Shown here piece by piece: positions 5,101-35,632 of a stretch of 41,868 nucleotides of DNA; positions within the stretch are counted from its first letter, which is position 1, and each line of letters opens with the position of its first letter. This DNA comes from a virus. Made by a program: the position numbers and the translations under genes. Under the pieces are notes generated by a model. The model saw only the letters and a list, made by a program, of their open reading frames with translations, had not been told where the DNA came from and made no database searches. Location: IMG/VR virus record IMGVR_UViG_3300037264_005735, positions 1 through 41,868 of that record. One strand, 5' to 3'.

Positions 5101-8047
5101 CGACGACGTTGGCCATGTTGAAGGAGGGTCCGTCCTGCTTCTCGCAGAGCCGGAACAGCAGCGCCTTCAGAACGTCGTCAGCCGGGAAGTCGTCAATGAG
5201 ATTGAACGACGCCCACCCGTCGGCGGCGGACCTGACGCCCGATCCTCCGAATCCCTGATTCACCCCGAGGAATATGTCCGAGTACCCTCCGATCCCGTCC
5301 CCGTCGTAGAGCCGAAGTTTGATGTTCCGTATCGTCCACAGGGTCCCGGAGAAAAAGGCAGTCCCGATGGCGAAGATATGGAAGAAGGCGTTCTGGTTGG
5401 CGACGTGGGCCGTGATGTCGATCGGGGCAGGAAGGGCAACCCGCATCACACTAGTCGGTCCCTCCATGAGTTTGTTGATCTTCAGCCAACCGTTGAAGGC
5501 GGCATGGTAGGGTGTCGGAGACGGGCCGAACGGCCACGCCGGGGGCGTGTCTCCTGGCTCCGTCTCGTGATGAACGTGCCCATCGAACATCGGAGGCTGG
5601 TCGTCGCCCCCCATCGCCCCGATGGACCCCGCCCCCACGGACTGGACCGTCTCCCCGGGATGGATCGCTTTCCCATAGAAATCCATCGCCGAGAACCCAC
5701 CCACAAAAAGGGTACCTCTTACCAAGTCCACCTCGTCCCCAGAGAAGATGTCGGCTCCCGTCCCCGGCGACCCGGTCCTGGGCCAGTTGGTAATCCCCTC
5801 CTTCACAAGGCGGACGAGTCTTATGGCGTCAGACCCCACCGCACCGAGGTTCTGAGCCATGTTGCTCTTCAAGGTGCTGAACATCCTTGACCCGTCAGGC
5901 TGGAGGACTCCAGCCCCGTTGTCGAACGAGTATACCGCCGTCTTCCCGTTGTCCACCTGGATCACCAGGTGCATCTTGGCAGGTGGGCCCGGATCCGGCC
6001 TGGCCCGGTATCTCAGCCTAAACTCGCTCCAGTTCCCCCCTGTGGGCTCTGCGGGATCGAACCACCTCTCCGCCCGTACCTCCTGCCCATCGACGCCGAT
6101 GGGCATCTTGCCCCTATCCACCCCTATGTTCCGCATGTCGAAGGCAGGATCCGTCCCCACGGTCACCCCGCCTCCCACGAGGAAATAGAAGCCGGTGTCC
6201 GGATGAGTAATCTGCACCAGCCTCCAGTCCTCGAAGCAGGTGTATCCGCCAGCCCCCTCGAAGGCGAGAGGGTCTGCGTAGCTATTGAACAGGAAGGTCT
6301 TTGTCACCACCTTCCCGAGACCCGCGTCATACCGGAAATGGAACCCCTCGAAGTTGATGACGAACGGGAACACGATGGACGTCATCCCGACGAATCCGAC
6401 CTGCCAGTACACGCACCGTCGGGCGTTGAACTGCCCCTTCGACTCCAACGTGGGCTGCACGACCTTCGCGTCGTTCATGTTGATGGTGAGGATGTTGTCC
6501 CCGATGGACAGGGCGGGCGGGGCCACCGCGATCATCACCTCGCGCCCCACCTCATCGAACAGCGTGAGTATTATCTCCCTGATCACGGTCGCAGGAGGCG
6601 CAACGAGAAGATTGAACGCGATCTGAACATCGGCGTTCACATCAGTGACATCGTTGAAACCGAGATCCCAATACCCGAGAGGATCGGTACAGACCTGGCT
6701 CACCGTCCCGACCGAGAGATCACCCTCCCAAGTGAGGGCATTGAACTTCACTATGATGGGGTTGGGATTGGGTGGGTATAAGATGGACTGAAGGTTGACG
6801 AACTCGCATGTGAGCGTGGTGCCGGGGGCGACCGGCTCCGGGTCGTACCCGCACTGGATGTCAGTCAGGGTGCTCATGTCATTGATGAGCGTAGCCCCGC
6901 CGTTTGTCCTCAACTCATCCAAGGCGAAACGATCGTTGGAGTTGACTCCAGCGGTTCCGAAAATTGTCCACCACTCCGTCACGTTCAGCCAATCGAACCC
7001 GGCATCCGGGAACGTGAACGCCGCAAGAAGCACCGTGACGGTTTGCGACCCGCCAACCGCCACGAAGTTGTGGATCGCCCTCCGGCCGAACTCATCCACC
7101 ATGACGACCCGGACGTTCACCCCCGGCCTCCATGAGTACACCGTGAAGGTCACGTCCGTCGTCAGGATGATCGGCCCCGTCGGGATGTACCGGATGCTCG
7201 GGGGATAGAACGGCGAGGGGATGTCGCACACGCGGAAGTGGACCGCCCCGTTCCCGTCGATGAGCGGCGGCCCCACGTAGCACTCGTCGCAGGGCTCGGG
7301 CGTCGGGGACTCCGGCTCGTCCGCGTCGCACACCACCCTTTCCAGGACCATCTCGCTCTCGAACTCCTCCAGGAAGAAGCAGGAGTCGCCGGGGTTGTTC
7401 CCGCCGTAGGGCTCCGAGTCGACCTCGAAAGCAAGCCCTCCTACTCCCCCGGGCGTCTGGTTTGTGCAGACCCGAAGGTTGTCGATCGCCATCATGCAGG
7501 TGGCGACCTGGTAGTTGTGGGTGAACCCGAAGTAGACGTACCGGACCTTGTCCCAGTTGAAGCCGAGGTCGAGCAGGGTGAAGTCATCCAGGGGGATGTT
7601 CACCCACAGGACCGACCCGATGGACGGCGTGAAGGAGACCCACGCCCGCTGGCCCTGGTCGTCCACCAGGAAGACCTCGTAGACGCCGATCGGCTTGGCG
7701 AGGTAGAGGTTGAACCGGAGCGCGGTGTCGGAGACGTTCCCCCCGCCCGAAAGGAAATCGGTGTCCGCCGTGAGCTGGAGCCTGACGAGGAAGTGAGTCT
7801 CCAGCATCCCCAGCGTCACCCCGAGGGCCCCCCCTGTGATGATCGGGCATCCCCGGTCCATGTCCCCAAGCTGCTCCCCATAGATGAAGCACTCGATCTC
7901 GAACGGGAACGGGGCCCCTGGGTTGGTGCAATCGGAGAAGCACTCGCAGACCCGGACGGGGAACCTTCCCACCTCGACCTGGTTCACCACGCACTGCCGA
8001 TACGGGTCTATCACCAGACCCGGGAAGTCGGTGGGCCTCGTCACCAT
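2138..8047 (-). CDS. Giant multi-domain tail adhesin with repeated jelly-roll-like modules (1969 aa)
   Basis: The largest gene of the window. The N-terminal third holds at least three related beta-sandwich-like modules. Each has a core of the form V-x-V-x-x-V-D-x-x-G-x-R: VFLVDDQGQRAWV (near 7665), VVMVDEFGRRAI (near 7095) and LTLFDEVGREVMI (near 6550). The first two also carry downstream aromatic and FALDEL/AIDNLR strands. Cysteine pairs (CECFSDC, CDECYVG) separate the modules. The middle and C-terminal parts are beta-rich and Trp/Cys-rich, and the protein ends in a polyproline tail. A related module occurs in the preceding gene. The layout fits carbohydrate-binding tail spikes or fibres, so host-surface binding is inferred. 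No hydrolase catalytic site was recognised. ATG 8047 lies 10 bases after the upstream stop. Confidence 0.8.
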   Translation of the reverse strand: MVTRPTDFPGLVIDPYRQCVVNQVEVGRFPVRVCECFSDCTNPGAPFPFEIECFIYGEQLGDMDRGCPIITGGALGVTLGMLETHFLVRLQLTADTDFLSGGGNVSDTALRFNLYLAKPIGVYEVFLVDDQGQRAWVSFTPSIGSVLWVNIPLDDFTLLDLGFNWDKVRYVYFGFTHNYQVATCMMAIDNLRVCTNQTPGGVGGLAFEVDSEPYGGNNPGDSCFFLEEFESEMVLERVVCDADEPESPTPEPCDECYVGPPLIDGNGAVHFRVCDIPSPFYPPSIRYIPTGPIILTTDVTFTVYSWRPGVNVRVVMVDEFGRRAIHNFVAVGGSQTVTVLLAAFTFPDAGFDWLNVTEWWTIFGTAGVNSNDRFALDELRTNGGATLINDMSTLTDIQCGYDPEPVAPGTTLTCEFVNLQSILYPPNPNPIIVKFNALTWEGDLSVGTVSQVCTDPLGYWDLGFNDVTDVNADVQIAFNLLVAPPATVIREIILTLFDEVGREVMIAVAPPALSIGDNILTINMNDAKVVQPTLESKGQFNARRCVYWQVGFVGMTSIVFPFVINFEGFHFRYDAGLGKVVTKTFLFNSYADPLAFEGAGGYTCFEDWRLVQITHPDTGFYFLVGGGVTVGTDPAFDMRNIGVDRGKMPIGVDGQEVRAERWFDPAEPTGGNWSEFRLRYRARPDPGPPAKMHLVIQVDNGKTAVYSFDNGAGVLQPDGSRMFSTLKSNMAQNLGAVGSDAIRLVRLVKEGITNWPRTGSPGTGADIFSGDEVDLVRGTLFVGGFSAMDFYGKAIHPGETVQSVGAGSIGAMGGDDQPPMFDGHVHHETEPGDTPPAWPFGPSPTPYHAAFNGWLKINKLMEGPTSVMRVALPAPIDITAHVANQNAFFHIFAIGTAFFSGTLWTIRNIKLRLYDGDGIGGYSDIFLGVNQGFGGSGVRSAADGWASFNLIDDFPADDVLKALLFRLCEKQDGPSFNMANVVAYDLIAEDGWYVGKTWFFQNDIGNWNSPALLWNWNRSTWPQLIGFTNPSNQFSVGKALDPNTTPVVALNCDKTKGIAYWGMHEDWLRSAEIVLVPAKYRDDPIVGIDGNRGYDEFGNPLPGVLEALARDTGAWYGNIAFKSPPFKGCRNIWMDFCYLDEVVCLGTDLEKALYNFWDTECPCYGPPQEISNLVTHYRGEDPPGQPLPGWLDRILPDDQFILEMGAQPLPSGYPEAIQFEYCAIPDLDTVAEDDTDPAFTFRRETPSCSRPDDPINSVFGHYVVRVTLTAKQAPITINWADVLPPGETLIQGAMSDAAIVLVNVGDVAVREYMLRTAQLDGGSAAITGAAVVVPNPPVTLVSPATLMDLDCDTLSWRQFGSQNPNVYGVVYWAGWGRPDPVAPPGTNLWTKVWAGPGSAGLSKREQYLFSDATIPASTASWVFQLGGTGIEGFALGLPVWAFNTDFVDNPVRRITGLDIEAEEASANPDEEVTGLYGVVTAIDPNLMTVTVQFNVPPDQQVRFTMLAKACLMVAPDQSRGYYWEASPALVDVCKLAPYTDPLVKHTVLRWGFRYWNSTKYPAPGTNGAGYICDGDGESLLYEIHGEIAREVINPVDWMDLLCSPVQETKLLNNALPAQDDVRVCDYCLFEPCDIIQIVDENCTGKEGSGPGYVGAVVATAPDDPSTTCDTFYAAEGHVQIIPAIPSAVVGCGSIDGFKTTRRARVFVKPDVARYAYIPTTKVYPDGVPVDGQNFVGVDFETGTFTFLPGAVVSNPCACFRAINSIIQLNVQEPGIYFLKGIDKSGCKSPPSKPIKIVGPSGEEPDTCGVGECPTLLFHNSKQHGEKEYAVQPPTTYEIVSGTDGPAVFAFLLTVPSRVEFRVSLFGWDVARFLDSAVWTELWVKDEITGIYYPLADRFAYGNVADIPAVEGDSGAGSVISRVVDLPARNHVFGLYVKNGNAQSYSRIRGPIDLQVWRFGRCTPPPPPPL

Positions 8048-8057
8048 GACTCATCCC

Positions 8058-10592
8058 TCACTGCGGTCCCTGGCACTCCTCTTCGAGGACCTCCAGGACC
8101 GTCTGCACCTGGTTGTGGGCCGGGACGAACTCCACTGTACCATCCAGGTTCACCCTGGTGATCACCGGGATCTTGTTCGTCTTGCACCCAATCCCGGGGT
8201 CGATCTCCCCCTCGGGGCCGCTGACTCGGCGAATCTGCGCCGCGCACACCGCGATCTCGAAGGCGTCGGGTCCCACCTCACAGGCGGGCGCGAGCGGGTT
8301 CGGGTCAGGCTCCGGCTGCCTCGGGACCCCCATCCTCGGTGCTTGGATGCCCCTCGGGGCCTCAGGCTCCGAGAAGTACCCGCAGGAGGCGATCTGCTGC
8401 TCGAAGAGTGCCTCCACATCGTCCCAGGACTCGACCACGACCGATCCGTTATTGGACAGCCAGTTGTCGATCGCGTACTCGTCGTGCGCCAGGGGTTCCA
8501 TCCAGTAGATGCACCACGACACTATCCGCGTGAAGTCCGGCATCCCGTCCGGGATCGTGAAGTCCCCCGTGTTGATGACGAGCGTCTCCACCGCCCCCGA
8601 GGTCACATGGTCGTAGTAGGCCCGCTTCCCATCCGCATCCACGAGCATGATCCGCACAGGAGCCGACGGCCTGTTCGACTGGAGATCGAGCGTGATATTC
8701 GGACCGATATCGATCGCCGGGTCGAAGTACCGGCACATAGCGAACGGGGTGATCTGCACCGGGTTCTCGATGCAGGCCCACAACGCCCCCCCTTGCCCCA
8801 TGAGAGGCGGCCCCTGACGGCAGATGTCGCACTCCGGCGGCGGAGGCGGAACGGGAGGCAGCTCGTGCAGGGGCACGATCTCGAAGCAGAGCGTCAGGAT
8901 CACGTTGTCGATGCACTTCGGGAGCTCGATCAGCTTCTCCAGCCTCGTGATCCCGTCCTGGATGGTCAGCCCGGGCTTCTCCGGGTCGAACGTCGAGGGC
9001 TCCCACATCCGGTACGTCCTGGTCCCGACGTACTGGCAGGAGGAGTAGAGGTCCAGCACCATGAGCGGGATGACCGCCTCCTCCCCCTTAGTCACGCAGA
9101 CCGTCTCGATGAGCAGGAACTCGCCGCCGCACTTGATCCCCCCACATACCTCCTGCCTCACCACACATACTACGCAGGAGCGGTTCGACGCCGGGAAGTG
9201 GAGCTCCAGGGACTTGCACCCGCAGAGGTCCTCCCCGCAGAGCGACCCGCACATCCCCATCGAGACGATGACCCTCTCCGCCTCCTCCGGGGGGTACCCA
9301 TAGAGCGGCTGGGGAGCGGCGTTCTCCCACCCCGTGAACCCGTCCTCGAACAGCCCGTTCGAGACCAGGTTGGACCCGAGGATCGAGTCAATCTGGGATT
9401 TTCTATAATATCTGTCGTCGTGGACCTTGAAGTAGCGGGGGTCCAGCGGGTCGTTCACTTCGCTCCAGTTCGGCACCTCGTCCAGGTCGCCGAGGAGATG
9501 GGAGTCCCGCTTCATGTGCCGCTGGGCGACCGTATCCTCGCAGAGGGCATTCCCGTCGATGATGCAGGTCCCCAGCACCCTCCGGCCCAGGGCCAGAGTG
9601 ATGTTCGCCTGCATGACCAGGGTGCCCGTCATGGTGTCCCCGGTCACGTTCACGAAGCGGTCGTCGATCTCGTCCAGACGGAAGAGCTTCCTCCGGAGGT
9701 CCGTGATCATCGCGTCCGTGATGGTTGGGTTTCCCGCCGGGCGCTCGATCAGGGCCAAGGGGACGACGACGTGCGGGTTCCCGTCCGTGTCCGTCCACCC
9801 CGAGGGCATGACATAGGGGAGGACGATCCCCTCCTCCACCTTGACCGTCTGGACCAGCTTCCACCGGAACATCGCCTCGATCTGCATCGAATCGACCGTG
9901 TGCTTGAGGTCCGTGTCCTCCGTCGGGTTCACCTCGTCGAGGTAGCAGTCGAGGTACACCAGGTCCTTCCGGTTCGCCAGGGGCGTCGTCAGCCCCACCC
10001 GGTACTGCGCCCCGACCGCCGCGACCATCGTGACCCCCACCCGGATCGTGGTCGCCGTGTTGGCGACGATCGCGTAGGCGTTCGCCGGGACGGCCAGGTC
10101 CGGGGTGAGGATCCTGCCCACCAGGGCGCCGGGCGTGAAGTCGGCCGCGGTGTCCACGAGGGTGTCGTTCGGGAGGACGGTCTGGATGAAGGCCGTGGAA
10201 ATCGGGGCCGTCTGGCCGCCGGACATGAACGTCTCGTCCGCCCAGAGCTGCGCGTGGTGCCCCTTGTTGAACATCCCCTCCGGCCCGGGCTGCGGCAGAA
10301 CCACCGTCTTGTCGGCGTTGACCGTGAGGTTGACAGCGGGGAGGACGTTCCCGCCGTTGATGAGGAACTCGTTCACCAGGTTCGGGAGGTTCTGGCTGAT
10401 GAGGAAGGCGTCGCCCAAGGCGCCATCGCCCAGGGCCGACTGGATGATCCGGCGGAGCTGGGTGAAAGTGGAGTCCATCTGGTCGTTGTAGTCGGCGTCG
10501 ACGAGGGGGACTCCTGCCTGGAGGATTGTTTGCACATAGCGGCGAGCCTCATCAAACATTCGCCGCGTTATGATTGCTGTGCTGCTTCCCAT
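8058..10592 (-). CDS. DUF6519-like tail/baseplate protein with C-terminal binding module (844 aa)
   Basis: The N-terminus contains FDEARRYVQTILQAGVPLVD followed by ADYNDQ, resembling the start of DUF6519-type proteins of contractile tails (usual form QQGRVxLDADWNEQ). Residues 100-330 are beta-rich, with a DDRFVNVTGDTMTGTL segment typical of tail-fibre proteins. The C-terminal part has paired cysteines (CGSLCGEDLCGC) and a jelly-roll-like module with VRIMLVDADGKRAYYD, matching modules in the next gene. It probably links the baseplate to the adhesins. The start ATG at 10592 is 1 base after the stop of the LAGLIDADG gene, whose end supplies the GGAGGAAGG site. The first 22 codons are unusually A/T-ending and duplicate the fragment at 11356-11436. 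Confidence 0.78.
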   Translation of the reverse strand: MGSSTAIITRRMFDEARRYVQTILQAGVPLVDADYNDQMDSTFTQLRRIIQSALGDGALGDAFLISQNLPNLVNEFLINGGNVLPAVNLTVNADKTVVLPQPGPEGMFNKGHHAQLWADETFMSGGQTAPISTAFIQTVLPNDTLVDTAADFTPGALVGRILTPDLAVPANAYAIVANTATTIRVGVTMVAAVGAQYRVGLTTPLANRKDLVYLDCYLDEVNPTEDTDLKHTVDSMQIEAMFRWKLVQTVKVEEGIVLPYVMPSGWTDTDGNPHVVVPLALIERPAGNPTITDAMITDLRRKLFRLDEIDDRFVNVTGDTMTGTLVMQANITLALGRRVLGTCIIDGNALCEDTVAQRHMKRDSHLLGDLDEVPNWSEVNDPLDPRYFKVHDDRYYRKSQIDSILGSNLVSNGLFEDGFTGWENAAPQPLYGYPPEEAERVIVSMGMCGSLCGEDLCGCKSLELHFPASNRSCVVCVVRQEVCGGIKCGGEFLLIETVCVTKGEEAVIPLMVLDLYSSCQYVGTRTYRMWEPSTFDPEKPGLTIQDGITRLEKLIELPKCIDNVILTLCFEIVPLHELPPVPPPPPECDICRQGPPLMGQGGALWACIENPVQITPFAMCRYFDPAIDIGPNITLDLQSNRPSAPVRIMLVDADGKRAYYDHVTSGAVETLVINTGDFTIPDGMPDFTRIVSWCIYWMEPLAHDEYAIDNWLSNNGSVVVESWDDVEALFEQQIASCGYFSEPEAPRGIQAPRMGVPRQPEPDPNPLAPACEVGPDAFEIAVCAAQIRRVSGPEGEIDPGIGCKTNKIPVITRVNLDGTVEFVPAHNQVQTVLEVLEEECQGPQ
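10527..10592 (-). other. Recoded 5' segment of the DUF6519-like gene (codons 1-22)
   Basis: Among the 22 codons after the ATG through codon 23, 11 end in A or T, against 3 of the next 22. Compared with the leftover copy at 11374-11436, 18 of 21 residues are identical, and 10 of the 17 identical non-Met codons differ synonymously (for example GGA/GGC, ACA/ACG, GCA/GCC, GAT/GAC, TAT/TAC). Normal codon usage resumes at about the point where similarity to the leftover ends. Confidence 0.8.
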
Positions 10593-10593
10593 A

Positions 10594-11310
10594 TCAAGCC
10601 TTCCTCCGCCAGATCGGTACGTGCGACCACGCTTGACAATGGTTCGACCGGAACCCGAGACTGGCGAATCTCGTCGCGTACTCCTTGGTCGTATCCCCGA
10701 ATCCCTTCCGATTCGCGTTCGCCGCCCGCTTCTTGCTGAACTCCAGCATCAGTTCGGCCCTCTCCCTCTTGTTCACCAGGAAAGGAAGAAGTTCCTGGCA
10801 CAGCCGCCAGATCGACCCTGCCTTATTGACCCTGATCTCGATCCGGTCCTTCCACTTCTCATTCTTGGAGATGTCATTTCCTACAGTGAATTCCACACCC
10901 ATCTTCTGAAGAATCTCTATCACCTTTCCGGCAAGTCTCGGATCTGTGTTCGAGACCGACACGTTCGCGCCCGACACCGGTTTGCCTTCTCGCGGAGGGG
11001 CGATGCTTATCGATCCCTCTCCATCCCAGATACCCCCGAGCCACCCCATCTCCCTTTCGGTGAGACCGGCCTCTCCCCAGCTTTTTCCCACCAAGGAGTA
11101 CTGACCATCCAACGCCGCCATGATTCGCTCTGCGTCCTCCGGTCGGAGATAGCGCCATCCCCCAATATCCTCCACCTGGACCCCCATCTCATCAATCTTC
11201 CGAAGGATCACCTTCCTCCGCCTTCCCGATCTCTTGCGAACCTCCAGAATCGAAACTAACCCCCGCCCGTGGGCTTCCTTGTACCGCTTCTGAATCAGGG
11301 CTCCTCTCAT
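10594..11310 (-). CDS. LAGLIDADG homing endonuclease (free-standing, 238 aa)
   Basis: A single LAGLIDADG helix is visible at residues 86-100, REMGWLGGIWDGEGS, with Asp96 as the likely metal-binding residue. Single-motif enzymes usually act as homodimers that cut long asymmetric DNA sites. The first 60 residues are basic with a probable helix-turn-helix (IQKRYKEAHGRGL). The start ATG at 11310 has a strong AAAGGAGG site, which lies inside the hairpin described at 11319-11343. The stop is 1 base before the DUF6519-like gene. Upstream lies a leftover of that gene's 5' end (11356-11436), so the endonuclease interrupts the native gene start. The target is therefore probably the 5' end of the DUF6519-like gene. 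The endonuclease assignment is strong; the target is inferred. Confidence 0.88.
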   Translation of the reverse strand: MRGALIQKRYKEAHGRGLVSILEVRKRSGRRRKVILRKIDEMGVQVEDIGGWRYLRPEDAERIMAALDGQYSLVGKSWGEAGLTEREMGWLGGIWDGEGSISIAPPREGKPVSGANVSVSNTDPRLAGKVIEILQKMGVEFTVGNDISKNEKWKDRIEIRVNKAGSIWRLCQELLPFLVNKRERAELMLEFSKKRAANANRKGFGDTTKEYATRFASLGFRSNHCQAWSHVPIWRRKA

Positions 11311-11318
11311 CGGGCACC

Positions 11319-11359
11319 TCCTTTGTATAAAAGATACAAAGGATGCCCTATCGTGTCAA
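11319..11359 (-). promoter_or_regulatory. Promoter overlapping a Shine-Dalgarno-sequestering hairpin for the endonuclease gene
   Basis: On the minus strand TTGACA (11354-11359), 17 bases, then TATCTT (11331-11336). A perfect 10-bp inverted repeat, TCCTTTGTAT (11334-11343) and ATACAAAGGA (11319-11328) with a 5-base loop, overlaps the -10 box. Its 3' arm contains the first part of the GGAGG site. Read-through mRNA would fold and hide this site. A transcript from this promoter would start near 11324, inside the 3' arm, and would be unable to form the stem. The -35 box overlaps the stop codon of the leftover fragment. Confidence 0.75.
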
Positions 11360-11436
11360 GATGTTTCCTTTATTTGGACGTAGCGTTTCGCCTCGTCAAA
11401 GAGTCGTCTCGTGATTATGGCCGTGCTCTGGCCCAT
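11356..11436 (-). pseudogene. Leftover 5' fragment of the DUF6519-like gene (26 codons)
   Basis: ATG at 11436, with GGAGG upstream, encodes MGQSTAIITRRLFDEAKRYV, then Gln and five unrelated residues before TGA. The first 21 codons match the start of the complete gene at 10592 (18 identical residues; differences S/Q, M/L, R/K). Its codon usage is closer to the surrounding genes than that of the complete gene's start. I interpret it as the native start of the gene, cut off by insertion of the endonuclease cassette. It may still be translated as a short peptide. Confidence 0.82.
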
Positions 11437-11457: not shown

Positions 11458-11472
11458 CGCACACCGTGTGCG
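11458..11472 (-). repeat. Intergenic palindrome, copy 1 of 3
   Basis: CGCACACGGTGTGCG on the minus strand: 7-bp arms around one central base, directly after the TAG stop of the 200-aa gene (11473-11475). Further copies are at 28175-28193 and 37831-37847. Confidence 0.8.
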
Positions 11473-12075
11473 CTACATTTGGAAGTTTATGTACCTTGTG
11501 ATCTTGACGCTGGCGTTCTTGAACTTCGCCACATGGTAGATCAGGTTCACCATCGTACCCGAGCCCAGGGCCGCAGTCGCCTGCCCGCAAAAGATGCCCT
11601 GCTCCCGGATGTACTCCCCCGCCATCCCGTTTGCCTCTGTATAGTCGAGGATCGTCTGGACCAGGATGCTCCTCGTCGGCCCCGGCACCGGGTTCCCCAA
11701 CGGGTCCAGGTACGAGATGGCCGTCGGAGGCTTCCTGAAGTACTCGTCCACCAGGGAAACCGCCGAGACCAGGGGCGTCGGCGGTGTCGGGAGCGGGTCC
11801 CACGCGGGAAGCCCCCTCCCGACCGCATGGTACTTGATCCCCCCCGCGAAGTTCGGGTCGCCCTTCATCAGGGCAGCCAGGGCGATCGACATCCCGAGGA
11901 CGATCATGTTCGAGTTCCAGGGCGTCTCCTCGACCACCTCCTCCGTCCCGTCGGGCCGCCTGCGGGTGACAACGTCCTTCCACCGTCCCTTCACCTTCGT
12001 GAGGGCGTCATAGACATCCCTGGGAACCGCCACCCTCGGCCTCGGCTTGGGTTTAGGCTCTCCCACCTGCGACAC
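11473..12075 (-). CDS. Tail-associated protein of unknown function (200 aa)
   Basis: A GTG start at 12075 (MSQVGEPKPKPRPRV) lies 6 bases after the upstream fibre gene and follows a purine-rich site. The N-terminus is rich in KP/RP. The body contains NSNMIVLGMSIALAALMKGD and IKYHAVGRG, a pattern I associate loosely with tail-tip or fibre-attached proteins of large contractile phages, without a firm family name. The C-terminus is beta-rich (VKITRYINFQM). It lies between a fibre gene and the DUF6519-like gene, so a virion role is likely but unproven. No membrane anchor is obvious. Confidence 0.65.
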   Translation of the reverse strand: MSQVGEPKPKPRPRVAVPRDVYDALTKVKGRWKDVVTRRRPDGTEEVVEETPWNSNMIVLGMSIALAALMKGDPNFAGGIKYHAVGRGLPAWDPLPTPPTPLVSAVSLVDEYFRKPPTAISYLDPLGNPVPGPTRSILVQTILDYTEANGMAGEYIREQGIFCGQATAALGSGTMVNLIYHVAKFKNASVKITRYINFQM

Positions 12076-23288: not shown

Positions 23289-24380
23289 CTACGGCGCGGG
23301 CGGGGTCGGGGGACACGAGGTATCCGGGGGCGTTGGGGGGCAGTTGGGGTCCGGAGGCGGCGGAGGGGGTGTGGGCGGCGTCGGCGGGGACCCGGTCGGG
23401 GCCCCGAGCTTGTGGTCGATGGTGGTCGCCTGGTCCTTGATGCTCACAGCGTTCCGCTCGAAGTTGCCCACCACGTTCACCTTGAAGTCCCCCGTCACCC
23501 ACAGGGTGTAGTTCCCCGTGATGACGTCCACCCGCTCCCCCGTGACCCAGTCCTTCAGCCCACCATCGTTCACCCTCTGCTCCTGCCCCGTCACGAACGT
23601 GTCCTTCGTCCCGCCGACCTGGCGGCGTTCGTTGGCCCCGACCGCCGTGAAGTGGTTCGTCCCCACCCTCAGCGTCTCCGCCATCTCGACCAGCGTGTGG
23701 CGGTTCATCTTCACATGGTGCCGGTCGTCCATCTCGACCAGGCGATAGGACTTCCCGGCCACCCGAATCGAAAGCTCCCCCATGTTGTCGATCTCGATCC
23801 ACGACTTCGAGGGGCCGTGCCAGATGTGGATGCGCCCCTTCCCCGGCGTGTCGTCGATCTCGATCGTGATCCCGTTGTTCTTGGTCTTCAGGACCTTGTT
23901 GTACGGATACGTCGGCCCCCCGTTCTTCCGCAGAGGCGACGGCGGCTGGCACTGGTCCTCGTCCGTCAGGCTCTTGAAGCTGTCCGAGCCCTTGGGAGCC
24001 GAGGTGCTCGGGTCCGTCTTCCAGCATGTCTTGCCGTCCGCACGCGCCAGGGCCGGGGTCTCCGGGGGCTGGCCTTTCCGCTGGCCCCACCATGTCCCGC
24101 TCCATAGGGGGCGGTTCACGTCCCCGCTCTCGAACTCGATGAAGACCGCCGACCCGATGTCCGGGACGGCGAAGACACCGCAGTCCACATCGCCCCCGAA
24201 CGCTCCGCCTTTGAACGCCGCCCAGTCGGTCGCCAGCTCCAGGCCCAGGACCTCGTGGCACCGGCACTTCACCCGCCCGAGGCGTAGGGGGTCGTTGTTG
24301 TCCGCGACCATGCCGCGGTACGTCCCCCAAAATCGTTTTTCTTGATGCGGGAACACTTCCCCGGTTACGGAACTACTCAT
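23289..24380 (-). CDS. Baseplate spike protein, gp5/VgrG/gpV-like (363 aa)
   Basis: The N-terminus has the OB-fold motif GTYRGMVADNNDPLRLGRVK. A second patch around residues 60-80 reads FAVPDIGSAVFIEFESGDVN, and then RPLWSGTWWG; both are characteristic of gp5/VgrG/gpV spikes. Residues 150-340 have the repetitive beta-prism pattern of the needle (GITIEIDDTPGKGRIHI, RHTLVEMAETLRVGTNHFTA). The last 35 residues are Pro-rich with two Cys. No lysozyme domain is present, unlike T4 gp5. ATG 24380 overlaps the endonuclease stop (ATGA). Ten of the first 20 codons end in A/T against 1 of the next 20. A leftover 5' copy lies at 25227-25319. Confidence 0.88.
   Translation of the reverse strand: MSSSVTGEVFPHQEKRFWGTYRGMVADNNDPLRLGRVKCRCHEVLGLELATDWAAFKGGAFGGDVDCGVFAVPDIGSAVFIEFESGDVNRPLWSGTWWGQRKGQPPETPALARADGKTCWKTDPSTSAPKGSDSFKSLTDEDQCQPPSPLRKNGGPTYPYNKVLKTKNNGITIEIDDTPGKGRIHIWHGPSKSWIEIDNMGELSIRVAGKSYRLVEMDDRHHVKMNRHTLVEMAETLRVGTNHFTAVGANERRQVGGTKDTFVTGQEQRVNDGGLKDWVTGERVDVITGNYTLWVTGDFKVNVVGNFERNAVSIKDQATTIDHKLGAPTGSPPTPPTPPPPPPDPNCPPTPPDTSCPPTPPAP
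24318..24380 (-). other. Recoded 5' segment of the spike gene (codons 1-21)
   Basis: This segment uses AGT, GTA, GAA, CAT, CAA, AAA, CGA and TTT, whereas the following codons are almost all G/C-ending. The change in codon usage falls at codon 21, exactly where the leftover copy (25227-25319) stops resembling the spike protein. Confidence 0.7.
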
Positions 24381-25207
24381 CGTGACTCCCCGTAGGCCGT
24401 CGCCCACTTCCTCCGAAGAATCATCTGCTCCGGCGTACCTTCGTACATCCAATCACGAAGGCGCTTGGCGTCGTTCAAGTAGAACGCGGCAATCCAATAT
24501 CTTCCTCTGGCGACCCGAACGGTTCCCTTGACGACGCCTGCACACCTTCGCGCAGTCTCAAGGAACCATCGAATAAACCTCTCGGAACCTGAGACAATCT
24601 CGATGTGCAGACACTTGCGTTTCATCCACCGAACGTAACCATCCCCCTCGATGGCCCCCCGAAAGAAGTCCCTCATGAGTTCTTGTGGAATCCCGATCGG
24701 CGGACCGATAGTCATTGACTTCCTGGGCTCAAGACCCACCTGCTTGAAGAAATCCCCCACCCTGATGCTTGAAAAGACCATTCTCGCCACCGCCGATACT
24801 CTCTTCTTTTCTGGCGCTGCCTCTCGCCGATAGATATGGGCCCCGGTAAGCCCAGCAAGATACTCCACCCGATCCCTATCGGAGTCCTGCAATCCCATGT
24901 CAAAAGTACATGTCCCCCCGAACCATCTGACGTTTCCGTCCGTCCAGGCCCAACCCAGGAAATAGGCGAGTTCCCGACTCCATTCCTCGAAGAATCCATA
25001 TTTGATGGACGAGAACCGTTCCCACGTAGCCCTCCTGCCTTCCGAAACCGATCTGGTCTTGATCCCGACCCGCCTCATCCTCGTCCATATACTCCCAATC
25101 GGACGACCGAGCATCCTACCTATCTCCCGCATCCCGGCACCACCCTCGTACATCGCCCGAATCCGATCGTCCTCATCCTTTGTGAACGACCTCGGCCTCG
25201 CTCTCAT
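24377..25207 (-). CDS. LAGLIDADG homing endonuclease with N-terminal HTH (276 aa)
   Basis: Residues 8-52 form a likely helix-turn-helix (FTKDEDDRIRAMYEGGAGMR and RPIGSIWTRMRRVGI). Two degenerate LAGLIDADG helices follow: ELAYFLGWAWTDGN (79-92, Asp90) and LMRDFFRGAIEGDG (177-190), the arrangement of monomeric double-motif enzymes. It is free-standing, with no intron or intein needed. The stop overlaps the spike ATG. The start at 25207 has a GGAGG site that is partly inside a 9-bp hairpin preceded by TATAAT. Upstream lies a leftover 5' end of the spike gene, so the spike gene start is the probable target. Confidence 0.88.
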   Translation of the reverse strand: MRARPRSFTKDEDDRIRAMYEGGAGMREIGRMLGRPIGSIWTRMRRVGIKTRSVSEGRRATWERFSSIKYGFFEEWSRELAYFLGWAWTDGNVRWFGGTCTFDMGLQDSDRDRVEYLAGLTGAHIYRREAAPEKKRVSAVARMVFSSIRVGDFFKQVGLEPRKSMTIGPPIGIPQELMRDFFRGAIEGDGYVRWMKRKCLHIEIVSGSERFIRWFLETARRCAGVVKGTVRVARGRYWIAAFYLNDAKRLRDWMYEGTPEQMILRRKWATAYGESR

Positions 25208-25214
25208 GGTATCC

Positions 25215-25242
25215 TCCGAAGTAACGCTACTTCGGAATTATA
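25215..25242 (-). promoter_or_regulatory. Extended -10 promoter abutting an SD-sequestering hairpin
   Basis: TGG followed by TATAAT (25237-25242) is directly followed by a perfect 9-bp inverted repeat, TCCGAAGTA (25228-25236) and TACTTCGGA (25215-25223), with a 4-base loop. The 3' arm supplies the first part of the GGAGG site. A start near 25230 falls at the end of the 5' arm, so promoter transcripts cannot form the stem while read-through mRNA can. The -35 region is weak, as is common with extended -10 promoters. The layout matches 11319-11359. Confidence 0.7.
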
Positions 25243-25319
25243 CCACATTCCCTCCCAAACGTCCCAAAATACCTCCGCTCCGCGAACGGCATCGAGTTAG
25301 GCTGAAGCGGCTCCACCAT
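25227..25319 (-). pseudogene. Leftover 5' fragment of the spike (gp5-like) gene
   Basis: ATG 25319 encodes MVEPLQPNSMPFAERRYFGT, then F and nine unrelated residues before TAG. Aligned without gaps to the intact spike start it gives the same length (21 residues) and the pattern P-x-x-E-(R/K)-R-(Y/F)-(F/W)-G-T-(F/Y). Its codons are G/C-rich, as in the neighbours. Its start overlaps the end of the membrane-protein gene by 23 bases. Sequence identity is modest, so the fragment is less certain than the one at 11356. Confidence 0.65.
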
Positions 25320-25695
25320 CCCCCTTCTTCTCCTCCTTCTTCTCGACCTCCTCGTGCCTCCAGGTCCGCATGAACAGGGTGAAAGGCACCCGCCCGAGAT
25401 GCCTCGAAACGAACTCGTGCCAGATGTTCGACGCCCGGTGAACCAGGAACCCCCACAGGACCGGCTCGAACCACCCCATCCAGTCGAACACCCCCATGAT
25501 CTGAAGAAGGTAGGCCGTCCCGACACCGACCCAGACGGATTGACAGTATGGGCAACGGGCGAAGACCCCGATCTTCCTCGGCTTCTCCCCCCGGCCCGCC
25601 AGCCACGCCCGGACGCCCTCGAACACCTCCGCCGTGGAGGTGATCTCCACCACGGCCTCGACGAGGACGACCGCGACGATGAACTTCAGGACCAT
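25297..25695 (-). CDS. Small membrane protein, DUF1360-like (132 aa)
   Basis: Starts MVLKFIVAVVLVEAVVEITS at ATG 25695, immediately after the upstream stop. The N-terminal helix is hydrophobic, then CPYCQSVWVG (a CxxC pair) and a second hydrophobic stretch GTAYLLQIMGVFDWMGWFEP follow, ending in a charged Lys/Glu tail. DUF1360 proteins have this Cys-rich two-helix form. In a phage baseplate cluster it could be a holin-like or membrane-associated protein. Its location between the zinc-ribbon gene and the spike is unusual for lysis genes. The family call is tentative. Confidence 0.6.
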   Translation of the reverse strand: MVLKFIVAVVLVEAVVEITSTAEVFEGVRAWLAGRGEKPRKIGVFARCPYCQSVWVGVGTAYLLQIMGVFDWMGWFEPVLWGFLVHRASNIWHEFVSRHLGRVPFTLFMRTWRHEEVEKKEEKKGDGGAASA

Positions 25696-33054: not shown

Positions 33055-35058
33055 TTACCTTCTCAAAAGTTCCTCTTCGACAGTTGAGCCGCCGTCCCAA
33101 AGCCCGATCCGGCACACGATGAACTCGGCGGGCAGCGGCGGGTTCACCCCGACCTCCACGTTCATGCGCCCCTCGCGCCGCTCGGAGGTGGGGTTGTTCT
33201 CGGAGTCGCACTTGACGAAGTAGGCGCGCTCCGGCGACCCGTCCGGGGAGAAGAGCATCCCACGCTCGAACATGGTGTTCAAGAACTCGCTCACCGCCTG
33301 TTCGACGGTCTGCCAGGTCCTCTGCTCGTTCAGCTCGAAGATGGCGAACCGGAGGCCCCTGCGGAGGCTCTCCTTGACGTAGTTCAGGAGTCGGCGGACG
33401 TTGACGTAGTGCCTGCCGTCCTTGAAGGAGGTAAGGGTCCTCGCACCCCAGGGCCGGATGCCCTCCCCCTGGAACGACCGGATCACGTTGATCCCCACCG
33501 GGTTCAGGATGTCCTGCTCGCCGTCGCTCACGTTGTAGGTCAGGTCCAGCACCCCGAGGAGCGGGACGTTGGCCGGGGCGTAGTGGACGCCCCTGGTCGC
33601 CCCGATGTTCGCGTACACGCCCTGCATGAACCCGGACGGGGGCAGGGCCATCCTCGCGTTCGCGTTGTTCGGGTCCCGCACGATCAGCCACGGGTAGTAG
33701 AGGGTGGCGTAGGAGGTGTCGAAGTTCGCCTCGATGTTGCGGAAGTTCAGGATTTCCATCGGCTCGTCGTAGGCGAGCGGCGAGTCGAGGACCGCCACGA
33801 ACCGCTGGATCAGCTCGGCCCAGTCCGCCGCCGCCTTCTCGACCGCGACCGTGGTCACGCCGGGGATCGAGAAGAAGTTGAGGTCCGGCGACTCGCCCAG
33901 GAGGTACATCCCGCTCTTCGGGCTCGCGTCCGACCCGATGTAGTCGTTGTCCGTGACCACCGCTCCTTCCGTGCCCCCGGCGAGACCCTGATTCAGCACG
34001 GGCAGCGGGATCGCCATGTTCAGGTCCACCAGCGGCGGGAACAGGTCGATGACGGAGATCGTCTTCGATTCGTTCGACTGCCCCGCGAGCCGGATGCCGA
34101 AATAGTCCCTCGTGCAGGTGCTCTCCATCGAGAGCCCCTCGAAGGACTCGCGGAACTTGCCCTTCTCGTAGACCTTGAGATCGAACTCCATCGAGGCCGC
34201 GAGCGTCCCCGTCGGAAGCGTCGCGCCCGACGTGATGGCGATCGGGGCGAACCGGATCTGCTTCCCGTCGATCCGATCCACGATGACCGACCCGTAGTTG
34301 AACCCGTCGTCGAAGTACACCCTGGCCCCGACGGCGAGGTTCCCGGCGTTGGACAGGATCACCGCGGTCGCCCCGTTCACGAGGGGCTCCGCGATGGTGG
34401 TCACCAGGCGGTGGTCCGTCGCGCTGTGGATGAGGCTGCCAACCGGGAAGGTGAACGTCCCGAGGATGCCCGTCATGGCCCGGACGTTCAGGAGCCGGTT
34501 CGCCACGTCGATCGAGACGACGAAGGCGAAGGCGGCGTTCAGGCTCACCGGGTCGTAGACGCGGACGAGGTCGCCGATCTTCACGTTGCGGAGGGAGATC
34601 ACGGGGATCTGGGTGGAGCCGAAGCCGACCGGGGGGACCCCGACCGGACTCACGGCGATGGTCGTCCTCCACCGCTCGGTGGTGATGGACACGTTGTTCC
34701 CCCACGCGCCCTCGGAGATCGCGTTCACGTCGATCGCGGAGACGCCCTCGTGGTTCGCGAGCATGGTGTCCGCGATCGTCGCGCCCTGGCCGACCACGCG
34801 GGCGATGAAGCACCGCGAGCCGCCCTGGTCGAAGAACGCCTGGACGGAGGGGCGGAGGAAAGACCCGAGGTAGGAGTCGCCGTACTTGTCGACGAACTGG
34901 GTCGTGCTCGTGACCAGGTCGGCCCGGTCCGTCGGACCCTTCTCGGCGATCCCGACGAATCCGCCCGTGTTGACGCTCACCCCGACGATGCGGGGGATAC
35001 CGGCTTGCTCGATGACGAACACATCAGGGTGTAACGTCTCTATCCCCGCAAGAGCCAT
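33055..35058 (-). CDS. Contractile tail sheath protein (667 aa)
   Basis: The N-terminus has the sheath motif DVFVIEQAGIPRIVGVSVNT, then GFVGIAEKGPTDRADLVTS and FFDQGGSRCFIARVVG. The C-terminus has RPWGARTLTSFKDGRHYVNV, then LRRGLRFAIFELNEQRTW and PAEFIVCRIGLW, all typical of sheath family proteins. A beta-rich insertion spans residues 100-350, larger than in short sheaths. It surrounds the tube and contracts to drive injection. ATG 35058 lies 10 bases after the endonuclease stop with an AAGGAGG site. The first eight codons encode MALAGIET, the same as the start of the endonuclease, with synonymous differences, and early codons are unusually A/T-ending. Confidence 0.93.
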   Translation of the reverse strand: MALAGIETLHPDVFVIEQAGIPRIVGVSVNTGGFVGIAEKGPTDRADLVTSTTQFVDKYGDSYLGSFLRPSVQAFFDQGGSRCFIARVVGQGATIADTMLANHEGVSAIDVNAISEGAWGNNVSITTERWRTTIAVSPVGVPPVGFGSTQIPVISLRNVKIGDLVRVYDPVSLNAAFAFVVSIDVANRLLNVRAMTGILGTFTFPVGSLIHSATDHRLVTTIAEPLVNGATAVILSNAGNLAVGARVYFDDGFNYGSVIVDRIDGKQIRFAPIAITSGATLPTGTLAASMEFDLKVYEKGKFRESFEGLSMESTCTRDYFGIRLAGQSNESKTISVIDLFPPLVDLNMAIPLPVLNQGLAGGTEGAVVTDNDYIGSDASPKSGMYLLGESPDLNFFSIPGVTTVAVEKAAADWAELIQRFVAVLDSPLAYDEPMEILNFRNIEANFDTSYATLYYPWLIVRDPNNANARMALPPSGFMQGVYANIGATRGVHYAPANVPLLGVLDLTYNVSDGEQDILNPVGINVIRSFQGEGIRPWGARTLTSFKDGRHYVNVRRLLNYVKESLRRGLRFAIFELNEQRTWQTVEQAVSEFLNTMFERGMLFSPDGSPERAYFVKCDSENNPTSERREGRMNVEVGVNPPLPAEFIVCRIGLWDGGSTVEEELLRR
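35002..35058 (-). other. Recoded 5' segment of the sheath gene (about codons 1-19)
   Basis: Codons GCT, CTT, ATA, TTA, CCT, GAT, CAA and GGT are concentrated in the first 20; only one of the next 20 ends in A or T. The first eight codons match those at 35609-35632 at the protein level while differing at three synonymous positions (GCG/GCT, GGG/GGA, ATA/ATC). Confidence 0.65.
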
Positions 35059-35068
35059 GTTTCCTCCT

Positions 35069-35632
35069 TCAGTTCATCAAGGGGACCAGCGTCTTCTCTC
35101 CACGTTGAAGACCCGGATTCCTGCCCGCCCTCAACCGCACCGCAAGTCCCAGGATATCTTCCCGAATTTTCACACATTCAGGAAGCCCCTTGATGGGTCT
35201 CGTTTTCCCACCCCGAAGTCGGAAGCTCAATATTTGAAGTTCCAATGCTTTCTTCCAAATCTCAAAATCTCCGGCCTTCTTGCTCCGCAGAGGATACTTC
35301 TCAAAGTGGGGAACAACTTTGGTCGTCAAATCTTCTATTTTCCTGCAAGAAAACTTGTATTGGTCTCTGGCATTCGGATGCCCTTTTGACCTACTCCTGG
35401 CTCTTGATCCCTTCGCAAGCGTTCCGCACCCGAAGTATGCCTTGATCTTCTCCAAGATCGCCCGGTCGTCCTCCCGGAGTTGGATCGAGAACTCGAAGGA
35501 AAGTATCCCCACAAAGGACTCCACCTTCCCCTGCTTGTAGCAGTAGATCCCGAAGCAGCCCTCGCCGTCGACGAAGCCGGAGAGCCAGTGCCCGAAGGCG
35601 TCTCTCTCCGTCTCGATTCCAGCAAGAGCCAT
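35069..35632 (-). CDS. LAGLIDADG homing endonuclease fused in frame to the leftover sheath start (187 aa)
   Basis: Residues 1-8, MALAGIET, are the native sheath N-terminus. From residue 9 it becomes an endonuclease with one LAGLIDADG helix, HWLSGFVDGEG (15-25, Asp22), followed by FGIYCYKQGK and FEFSIQLREDDRAILEKIKA. The single motif suggests a homodimer. The base composition is lower in G+C than neighbours. Translation uses the sheath gene's original start signals (AAAGGATGAGCAC before ATG 35632), without the hairpin control seen for the other two endonucleases. The sheath gene restarts 10 bases downstream. The target is probably the sheath gene start. Confidence 0.88.
   Translation of the reverse strand: MALAGIETERDAFGHWLSGFVDGEGCFGIYCYKQGKVESFVGILSFEFSIQLREDDRAILEKIKAYFGCGTLAKGSRARSRSKGHPNARDQYKFSCRKIEDLTTKVVPHFEKYPLRSKKAGDFEIWKKALELQILSFRLRGGKTRPIKGLPECVKIREDILGLAVRLRAGRNPGLQRGEKTLVPLMN
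35609..35632 (-). repeat. Leftover first eight codons of the sheath gene
   Basis: ATGGCTCTTGCTGGAATCGA followed by GACG encodes MALAGIET and matches the start of the intact sheath gene at 35058 in all eight residues and 21 of 24 bases. Here it forms the N-terminus of the endonuclease. Confidence 0.8.

Follow-up and report, generated by a model that had tools for sequence, protein, structure and literature searches.

A homing endonuclease cassette at the start of a tail-region gene

The window analyzed in this study, that is, the whole stretch of DNA under consideration, is a 41.9-kb linear IMG/VR virus record (IMGVR_UViG_3300037264_005735) carrying minus-strand tail genes of a contractile-tailed phage, among them those for the sheath, the tape measure and the hub. 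Our subject is a group of cassettes in which a free-standing LAGLIDADG homing endonuclease gene (HEG) separates a short leftover of a native gene end from a complete copy of the same gene. The first of these, C1, lies on the minus strand behind a 200-aa tail-region gene (11473..12075) that is syntenic with the gene preceding the target gene in relatives. Marking the original upstream flank of the target gene is a 16-nt intergenic palindrome, GCGCACACGGTGTGCG (11458..11473, minus strand), followed by the leftover, a displaced native start of 26 codons plus a stop (MGQSTAIITRRLFDEAKRYVQIKETS, 11356..11436, minus strand), which is homologous to relatives as far as 11375 (codon 21). Predicted expression signals for the endonuclease, consisting of a promoter-like TTGACA-17-TATCTT (11359-11331) and a hairpin, span 11313..11359 on the same strand; the hairpin, CCTTTGTAT..ATACAAAGG, covers the ribosome binding site of the HEG and has a fold z of -3.2. 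The HEG itself (10594..11310, minus strand) encodes 238 aa with the motif WLGGIWDGEG and matches PF14528 (E 3.3e-7, 30.9 bits, cutoff 22.5). A single-sequence structure model of the enzyme reached a predicted local distance difference test (pLDDT) value of 49, too poor for a fold search, and its matches to influenza HA2 (P0002; phmmer vs PDB) were discarded as spurious.

The complete target gene (8058..10592, minus strand) begins MGSSTAIITRRMFDEARRYVQTILQAGVPLVDADYND and encodes an 844-aa protein of the tail/baseplate region, with its replacement 5' tract covering codons 1-27 (10512..10592), as delimited by identity to the related contig L007, the closest relative. The leftover is detected by tblastn when the full target gene is searched across the whole record, with an E value of 1.9e-5, so that the match is not due to chance. 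All three components proposed in the initial annotation of this locus are present, and its counts were reproduced: 18 of 21 residues of the leftover match the downstream start, and 10 of 17 identical non-Met codons are synonymously changed. The DUF6519-like label was dropped, as the 844-aa protein has no Pfam or PHROG family match, and its family is left unassigned; no relatives of P0001 are found in GenBank phages. The protein shares a segment of about 190 residues, 31% identical, with the product of the next gene (1969 aa; window 6755-7318 and 8058-10592), and the same segment occurs in the related contigs L004 and L007, representing paralogous domains in adjacent tail genes.

Relatives with an uninterrupted target gene

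Four related contigs (L004, L005, L006 and L007), with target protein identities of 64, 73, 55 and 74%, respectively, contain the upstream gene, a short spacer and a single continuous target gene without an endonuclease. Such HEG-less genes, starting like the leftover, had been anticipated, and no relative was seen to carry two full-length copies. In L007, L004 and L005 the target gene is directly preceded by counterparts of the palindrome (GCGCAAACGGTTTGCG, GCGCAAACAGTTTGCG) with matched changes in both arms, in the same position that the palindrome holds relative to the leftover in the window; it is absent from the spacer of L006, and its fold z of -1.5 is not significant alone. Because this type of spacer precedes the leftover as it precedes the intact genes of L007, L004 and L005, the leftover can be assigned as the native start. 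It continues the upstream sequence of the relatives, whereas the downstream start, preceded by the endonuclease gene, does not. The leftover aligns to L007 through TACGTCCA (codon 21), with 49/62 nt identical, and then diverges.

Identity of the complete target gene to L007 is 66.7% over codons 1-27 and 86.3% afterwards (permutation P 0.008). The initial annotation had placed the switch at codon 21, where homology of the leftover ends; the identity switch lies six codons beyond it, at codon 27. It had also pointed to the richness of the new start in A/T-ending codons, and G+C content at third codon positions (GC3) is indeed 0.52 vs 0.91. This is nevertheless weak evidence, since 3.7% of the 21-codon windows of the phage are as low, and it is no distinctive mark, as other gene starts in the phage equal or undercut it. 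The comparison with uninterrupted relatives shows that the native start was severed and retained as a short dead open reading frame (ORF), that the inserted block consists of the endonuclease and a divergent 5' copy with its own start codon, and that this replacement copy runs into native gene sequence slightly, by a few codons, beyond the site of insertion, so that a complete hybrid gene results.

Two further cassettes in the window and a fourth in related contigs

All three HEGs of the window (3/3) display the same anatomy of leftover start, HEG and complete gene. Cassette C2 is located at the tail sheath gene (35632-35023, minus strand), where the leftover, the native sheath start MALAGIET, is fused in frame to the endonuclease and now forms codons 1-8 of the HEG ORF (35609..35632, minus strand, by comparison with L012). 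The fused product (35069..35632, minus strand) is a LAGLIDADG_1 endonuclease resembling one half of I-OnuI, matching PF00961 with an E value of 1.3e-22 (81 bits, cutoff 23.1) and I-OnuI-family structures with an E value of 5e-29. Downstream, the tail sheath gene (33055..35058, minus strand) has a replacement start, again MALAGIET, with a tract at 35058-35023 corresponding to codons 1-12 (change point P 0.18). In L012, 86% identical, the upstream region continues directly into an uninterrupted sheath gene; across the 25 nt upstream, the leftover side of C2 is identical to L012 at 18/25 positions and the rescue copy at 8/25. From this comparison it follows that the original sheath start site now serves the endonuclease and that the sheath has acquired a new one.

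Cassette C3, at the baseplate hub gene (25319-24315, minus strand), is composed of a leftover native hub start beginning MVEPLQPNSMPFAERRYFGTF and closed by a stop (25227..25319, minus strand), which matches L017, L018 and the related phage G004, a 276-aa LAGLIDADG_3 endonuclease with two motifs (24377..25207, minus strand; PF14528, 26.2 bits, cutoff 22.5), and the complete gene for a baseplate hub/tail lysozyme-like protein (23289..24380, minus strand), which starts MSSSVTGEVFPHQEKRFWGTYRG and whose replacement start covers approximately the first 22 codons. A hairpin with a fold z of -5.5 covers the ribosome binding site at the start of the endonuclease gene. Hairpins over the ribosome binding site are known for T4 intron endonucleases. 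Against the empty allele of G004, the leftover is identical at 47/60 nt and the rescue copy at 24/60, while leftover and second copy share 23/60.

The fourth cassette, C4, is absent from the window, where the small gene ahead of the hub is intact (25297..25695, minus strand), and interrupts the homologue of that gene with a 262-aa endonuclease in five contigs (G004-G007 and L034; coordinates L033:804-2171, also in L030-L032 and L034), which stem from different metagenomes. Its 51 native start codons are displaced upstream, and a complete gene follows downstream. Over 153 nt, the leftover agrees with the window at 129 positions, the replacement with the window at 106 and the two copies with each other at 101, and the downstream gene becomes more similar to the window at codon 59, its identity climbing from 0.695 to 0.877 (permutation P<0.002). 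The window and G004 serve as reciprocal empty controls, the window for the cassette of G004 and G004 for that of the window.

Cassettes in other phages and in archaea

LAGLIDADG loci were surveyed from IMG/VR, GenBank phages and bacterial and archaeal genomes. Clear 5' cases outside this phage group are the helicase-like gene of L103, where the leftover ends at the Walker A motif, and a tail gene in L131. A mirror-image (3') cassette is carried by the cultured Streptomyces phage Jada (L041:3213-4099, HEG gp204), in which the 3' end of the homologue of Gilson gene 204 has been replaced ahead of the HEG; after the HEG comes the native end, which matches Gilson at 54/54 positions. The replacement end agrees with Gilson, Phredrick and Patelgo at 35/54 positions each, whereas these three are like the leftover at 43-54/54. 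The body of the Gilson-204-homologous gene was later deleted, joining gp203 to the replaced end. Two earlier readings of this locus were set aside: the phage Forrest has a deletion rather than an empty site, and Gilson was used instead, and the change does not belong to gp203, as the end is that of the neighbouring gene 204 and was joined to gp203 later by the deletion.

In archaeal cellular genomes, a pth2 cassette of the same type and at the same site is present in three genomes (L296, L293 and L321), with degraded forms in L330/L334 and L335, and some of the HEGs are degraded; pth2 was found in 38/40 relatives searched. A metK cassette in L326 has the leftover YFFTSESVTEG and the replacement YFFTSESVTEGHPDK, with 11/11 residues identical and 6 codons different. 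We take these genes to be pth2 (peptidyl-tRNA hydrolase) and metK (SAM synthetase) from recognised conserved motifs rather than from a family search. Survey matches in L080 and L081 (tandem paralogues), in L149 (DNA repeats) and in L092, L156 and L260 were not counted. These comparisons show separate origins of the arrangement: three in genes of the window, one in a fourth gene of its relatives, and others in further phages and in archaea.

Pooled statistics and strength of the survey

When C1-C4 and Jada are pooled and compared with the empty relative, the leftovers are identical at 293/347 positions and the replacement copies at 224/347 (Fisher P 2e-9), a value driven by C3, C4 and Jada, with C1 (P 0.22) and C2 (P 1.0) not significant alone. 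Across ten cassettes, 86 of the 145 identical non-Met, non-Trp codons differ synonymously, which is only suggestive of a rescue copy resistant to its own nuclease. In a tight-junction survey, where both copies had to abut the gene and low-complexity matches were excluded, 6/228 HEGs qualified vs 2/660 control ORFs (P 0.005), and both control matches are arginine/proline-rich wrong-frame sequence. This frequency is a lower bound, since short leftovers such as those of C2 and C3 would be missed. A de novo scan of the ORFs of the lineage for upstream copies was abandoned, being swamped by wrong-frame GC-rich ORFs that made the null unusable.

Interpretation and alternative explanations

We consider it probable that in each cassette a HEG has been inserted in a gene end and brought with it a diverged substitute for that end, which preserves the gene and is presumably left uncut. 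In the proposed sequence of events, a free-standing LAGLIDADG gene would first have entered a tail-region gene within its 5' end, close to or at the position that the enzyme is presumed to cut. In this initial invasion the replacement end was probably acquired from a diverged homologue; homologous recombination would have made the junction with the gene body, and end-joining at the break the opposite one. Such two-sided joining would explain why no leftover extends past the insertion point, whereas the foreign tract reaches a few codons farther. Thereafter the endonuclease would cut empty alleles of coinfecting relatives around the position of the leftover's end, repair of the break would copy the entire block into the empty allele, and the replacement end would keep the target gene working and escape recutting because its sequence differs. 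The replacement end is probably uncuttable by its own enzyme.

Several observations weigh against this interpretation. A loose survey by score alone does not separate HEG loci (14/247) from control ORFs taken within the same contigs (7/168) at score 50, a failure explained by GC-rich wrong frames and tandem paralogues, which also score. The viral contigs searched yielded no close relative of either the C1 or the C2 enzyme, so that these two are no more than candidates for mobile endonucleases, and C2 is short. Moreover, the replacement start of C1 is no more diverged from the relatives than these are among themselves, so that "recoded" may here simply mean "foreign". In general, the replacement ends resemble diverged alleles of foreign origin no less than they resemble native ends with minimal recoding. 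The initial annotation is partly supported, in that the same anatomy recurs at four loci of the phage group, in unrelated phages and in archaea; recoding as a block to cleavage, and homing of the cassette, would be further steps.

The strongest competing explanation, to which we give appreciable weight though somewhat less than even, is that the replacement end hitch-hiked passively as the allele of a donor phage, through co-conversion or one-sided recombination, and reflects ordinary divergence without selection for cleavage resistance. Differences in amino acids in the replacement ends of C3, C4 and L103 favour this view, as does the distance of the C1 and C4 replacements to relatives, which equals that between lineages; replacement ends in fungal mitochondria have likewise been traced to foreign donors (PMC3630166). 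It accounts less well for Jada, whose replacement (35/54) is far more diverged than the three relatives of the genus are, and for metK, where all residues were kept through the 6 codon changes. Passive transfer and insertion with a replacement end overlap in any case, because a donor allele must resist its own enzyme anyway.

The remaining explanations fare worse. A retained function of the leftover, as a leader peptide or a translational coupler serving the endonuclease, is suggested by C2, where the fused leftover supplies the start codon and ribosome site, but we regard it as unlikely, given that in C1 and C3 the HEG has a start of its own and a ribosome site covered by a hairpin, that a promoter-like site is present in C1 as well, and that leftover lengths and stops vary freely. 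Tandem duplication with decay of one copy and chance landing of a HEG in between would explain the duplicated ends, and there are instances of tail paralogues in tandem that flank a HEG (L080, L081); it is nonetheless improbable, as only the gene end is duplicated, stopping at the HEG, the pattern recurs in every HEG of the window, and the leftovers are nearer to empty relatives than to their own second copy (C3, 47/60 vs 23/60; C4, 129/153 vs 101/153). Introns and inteins are the usual setting of LAGLIDADG genes, and the cassettes could in principle be remnants of such an element that once spliced both parts, yet Rfam gives no match in the window and there is no intein block, the downstream gene has a full reading frame and a start codon of its own, and the leftover stops within a few codons, making this origin very improbable. 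Finally, the window is one metagenomic contig, and near-identical copies of C1-C3 were not found, as might be expected of an assembly chimera; with C4 in five contigs, Jada a cultured isolate with relatives, and the archaeal cases drawn from independent genomes, an artefact of this kind is highly improbable.

Relation to known systems

The closest known kind of element is the mobile ORF (mORF) of fungal mitochondria. In Glomus, atp6, atp9, cox2 and nad3 contain mORFs of the LAGLIDADG or GIY-YIG type with foreign C-terminal ends, the first case having been Allomyces atp6 (PMC3630166). Common to these and to the cassettes described here are an endonuclease in a protein gene, a hybrid gene, a displaced native end beyond the HEG, mostly synonymous differences, and the lack of an intron or intein (PMC3630166). 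The principle proposed by the initial annotation, a free-standing HEG that comes with a replacement gene end and dispenses with splicing, was already described there, mostly for 3' ends. The fungal elements are mitochondrial and affect 3' ends, whereas those reported here are found in phages and archaea, mostly at 5' ends of virion and housekeeping genes, with several cassettes in one phage and the 3' form seen in Jada. In Cryphonectria and Chrysoporthe, nad3-GIY-YIG ORFs have a 5' part like the start of nad3 (160-368 bp, 82% identity) and a 3' part encoding the endonuclease, and in C. parasitica the ORF lies 98 bp from the real nad3 (PMC4894602). These ORFs, which may be a 5' form of the fungal mORF, resemble the C2 fusion but differ in being GIY-YIG, mitochondrial and reported as partial duplication rather than replacement (PMC4894602).

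Free-standing HEGs of T4-type phages, such as mobE in Aeh1 nrdA and mobA in T4 gene 60, also reside in essential phage genes; there the gene is split into two working polypeptides and no replacement end is present (PMC2988022). That split-gene type is not matched here, where the downstream gene is complete and the gene end duplicated. Nuclease genes have been located at boundaries of phage genetic exchange (PMC10448857), a likeness in that a HEG forms the junction of foreign sequence in phage genomes, and a text search of that paper for duplication, truncation and N-/C-terminal yielded no replacement of gene ends. In the literature searched, which comprised open-licence papers only, no description of gene-end-replacing HEG cassettes was found for phages or prokaryotes. 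Engineered home-and-rescue and cleave-and-rescue drives, as outlined in PMC7968924 and PMC7951863, use a nuclease directed against an essential gene together with a re-spelled restoring copy. They are CRISPR-based, operate in insects and are resistant by design, whereas resistance here would follow from sequence divergence, and the likeness is one of function.

These cassettes offer an answer to how a free-standing HEG can sit in an essential gene without a splicing element, namely by bringing a replacement for the severed part. A form known from fungal mitochondria recurs repeatedly in phages and archaeal cells, at the 5' ends of virion genes and in pth2 and metK, as a natural counterpart of engineered home-and-rescue drives, and it accounts for some short ORFs that look puzzlingly like duplicates and for some hybrid gene ends. 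More tentatively, natural home-and-rescue elements, in which a free-standing endonuclease invades an essential gene, may constitute a class of mobile element that is widespread among phages and archaea, with re-spelled ends selected to escape their own cut, no need for an intron or intein, and hybrid virion and housekeeping genes as a repeated product. The target site of each enzyme should be predictable from the sequence, since it is expected to straddle the end of the leftover, and cultured Jada with its empty relative Gilson opens homing and cleavage resistance to direct test.

Additional observations

In L080 (1075-3878) and L081, a LAGLIDADG gene stands directly before each of the tandem paralogous tail genes, which could be whole-gene replacement cassettes. 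In L149 (900-3620), successive LAGLIDADG genes are separated by copies of a DNA repeat of about 70 nt. A LAGLIDADG_3 match in a related phage (L029, G004:C1:89761-89928) lies within an open frame of 939 aa and is possibly an intein.

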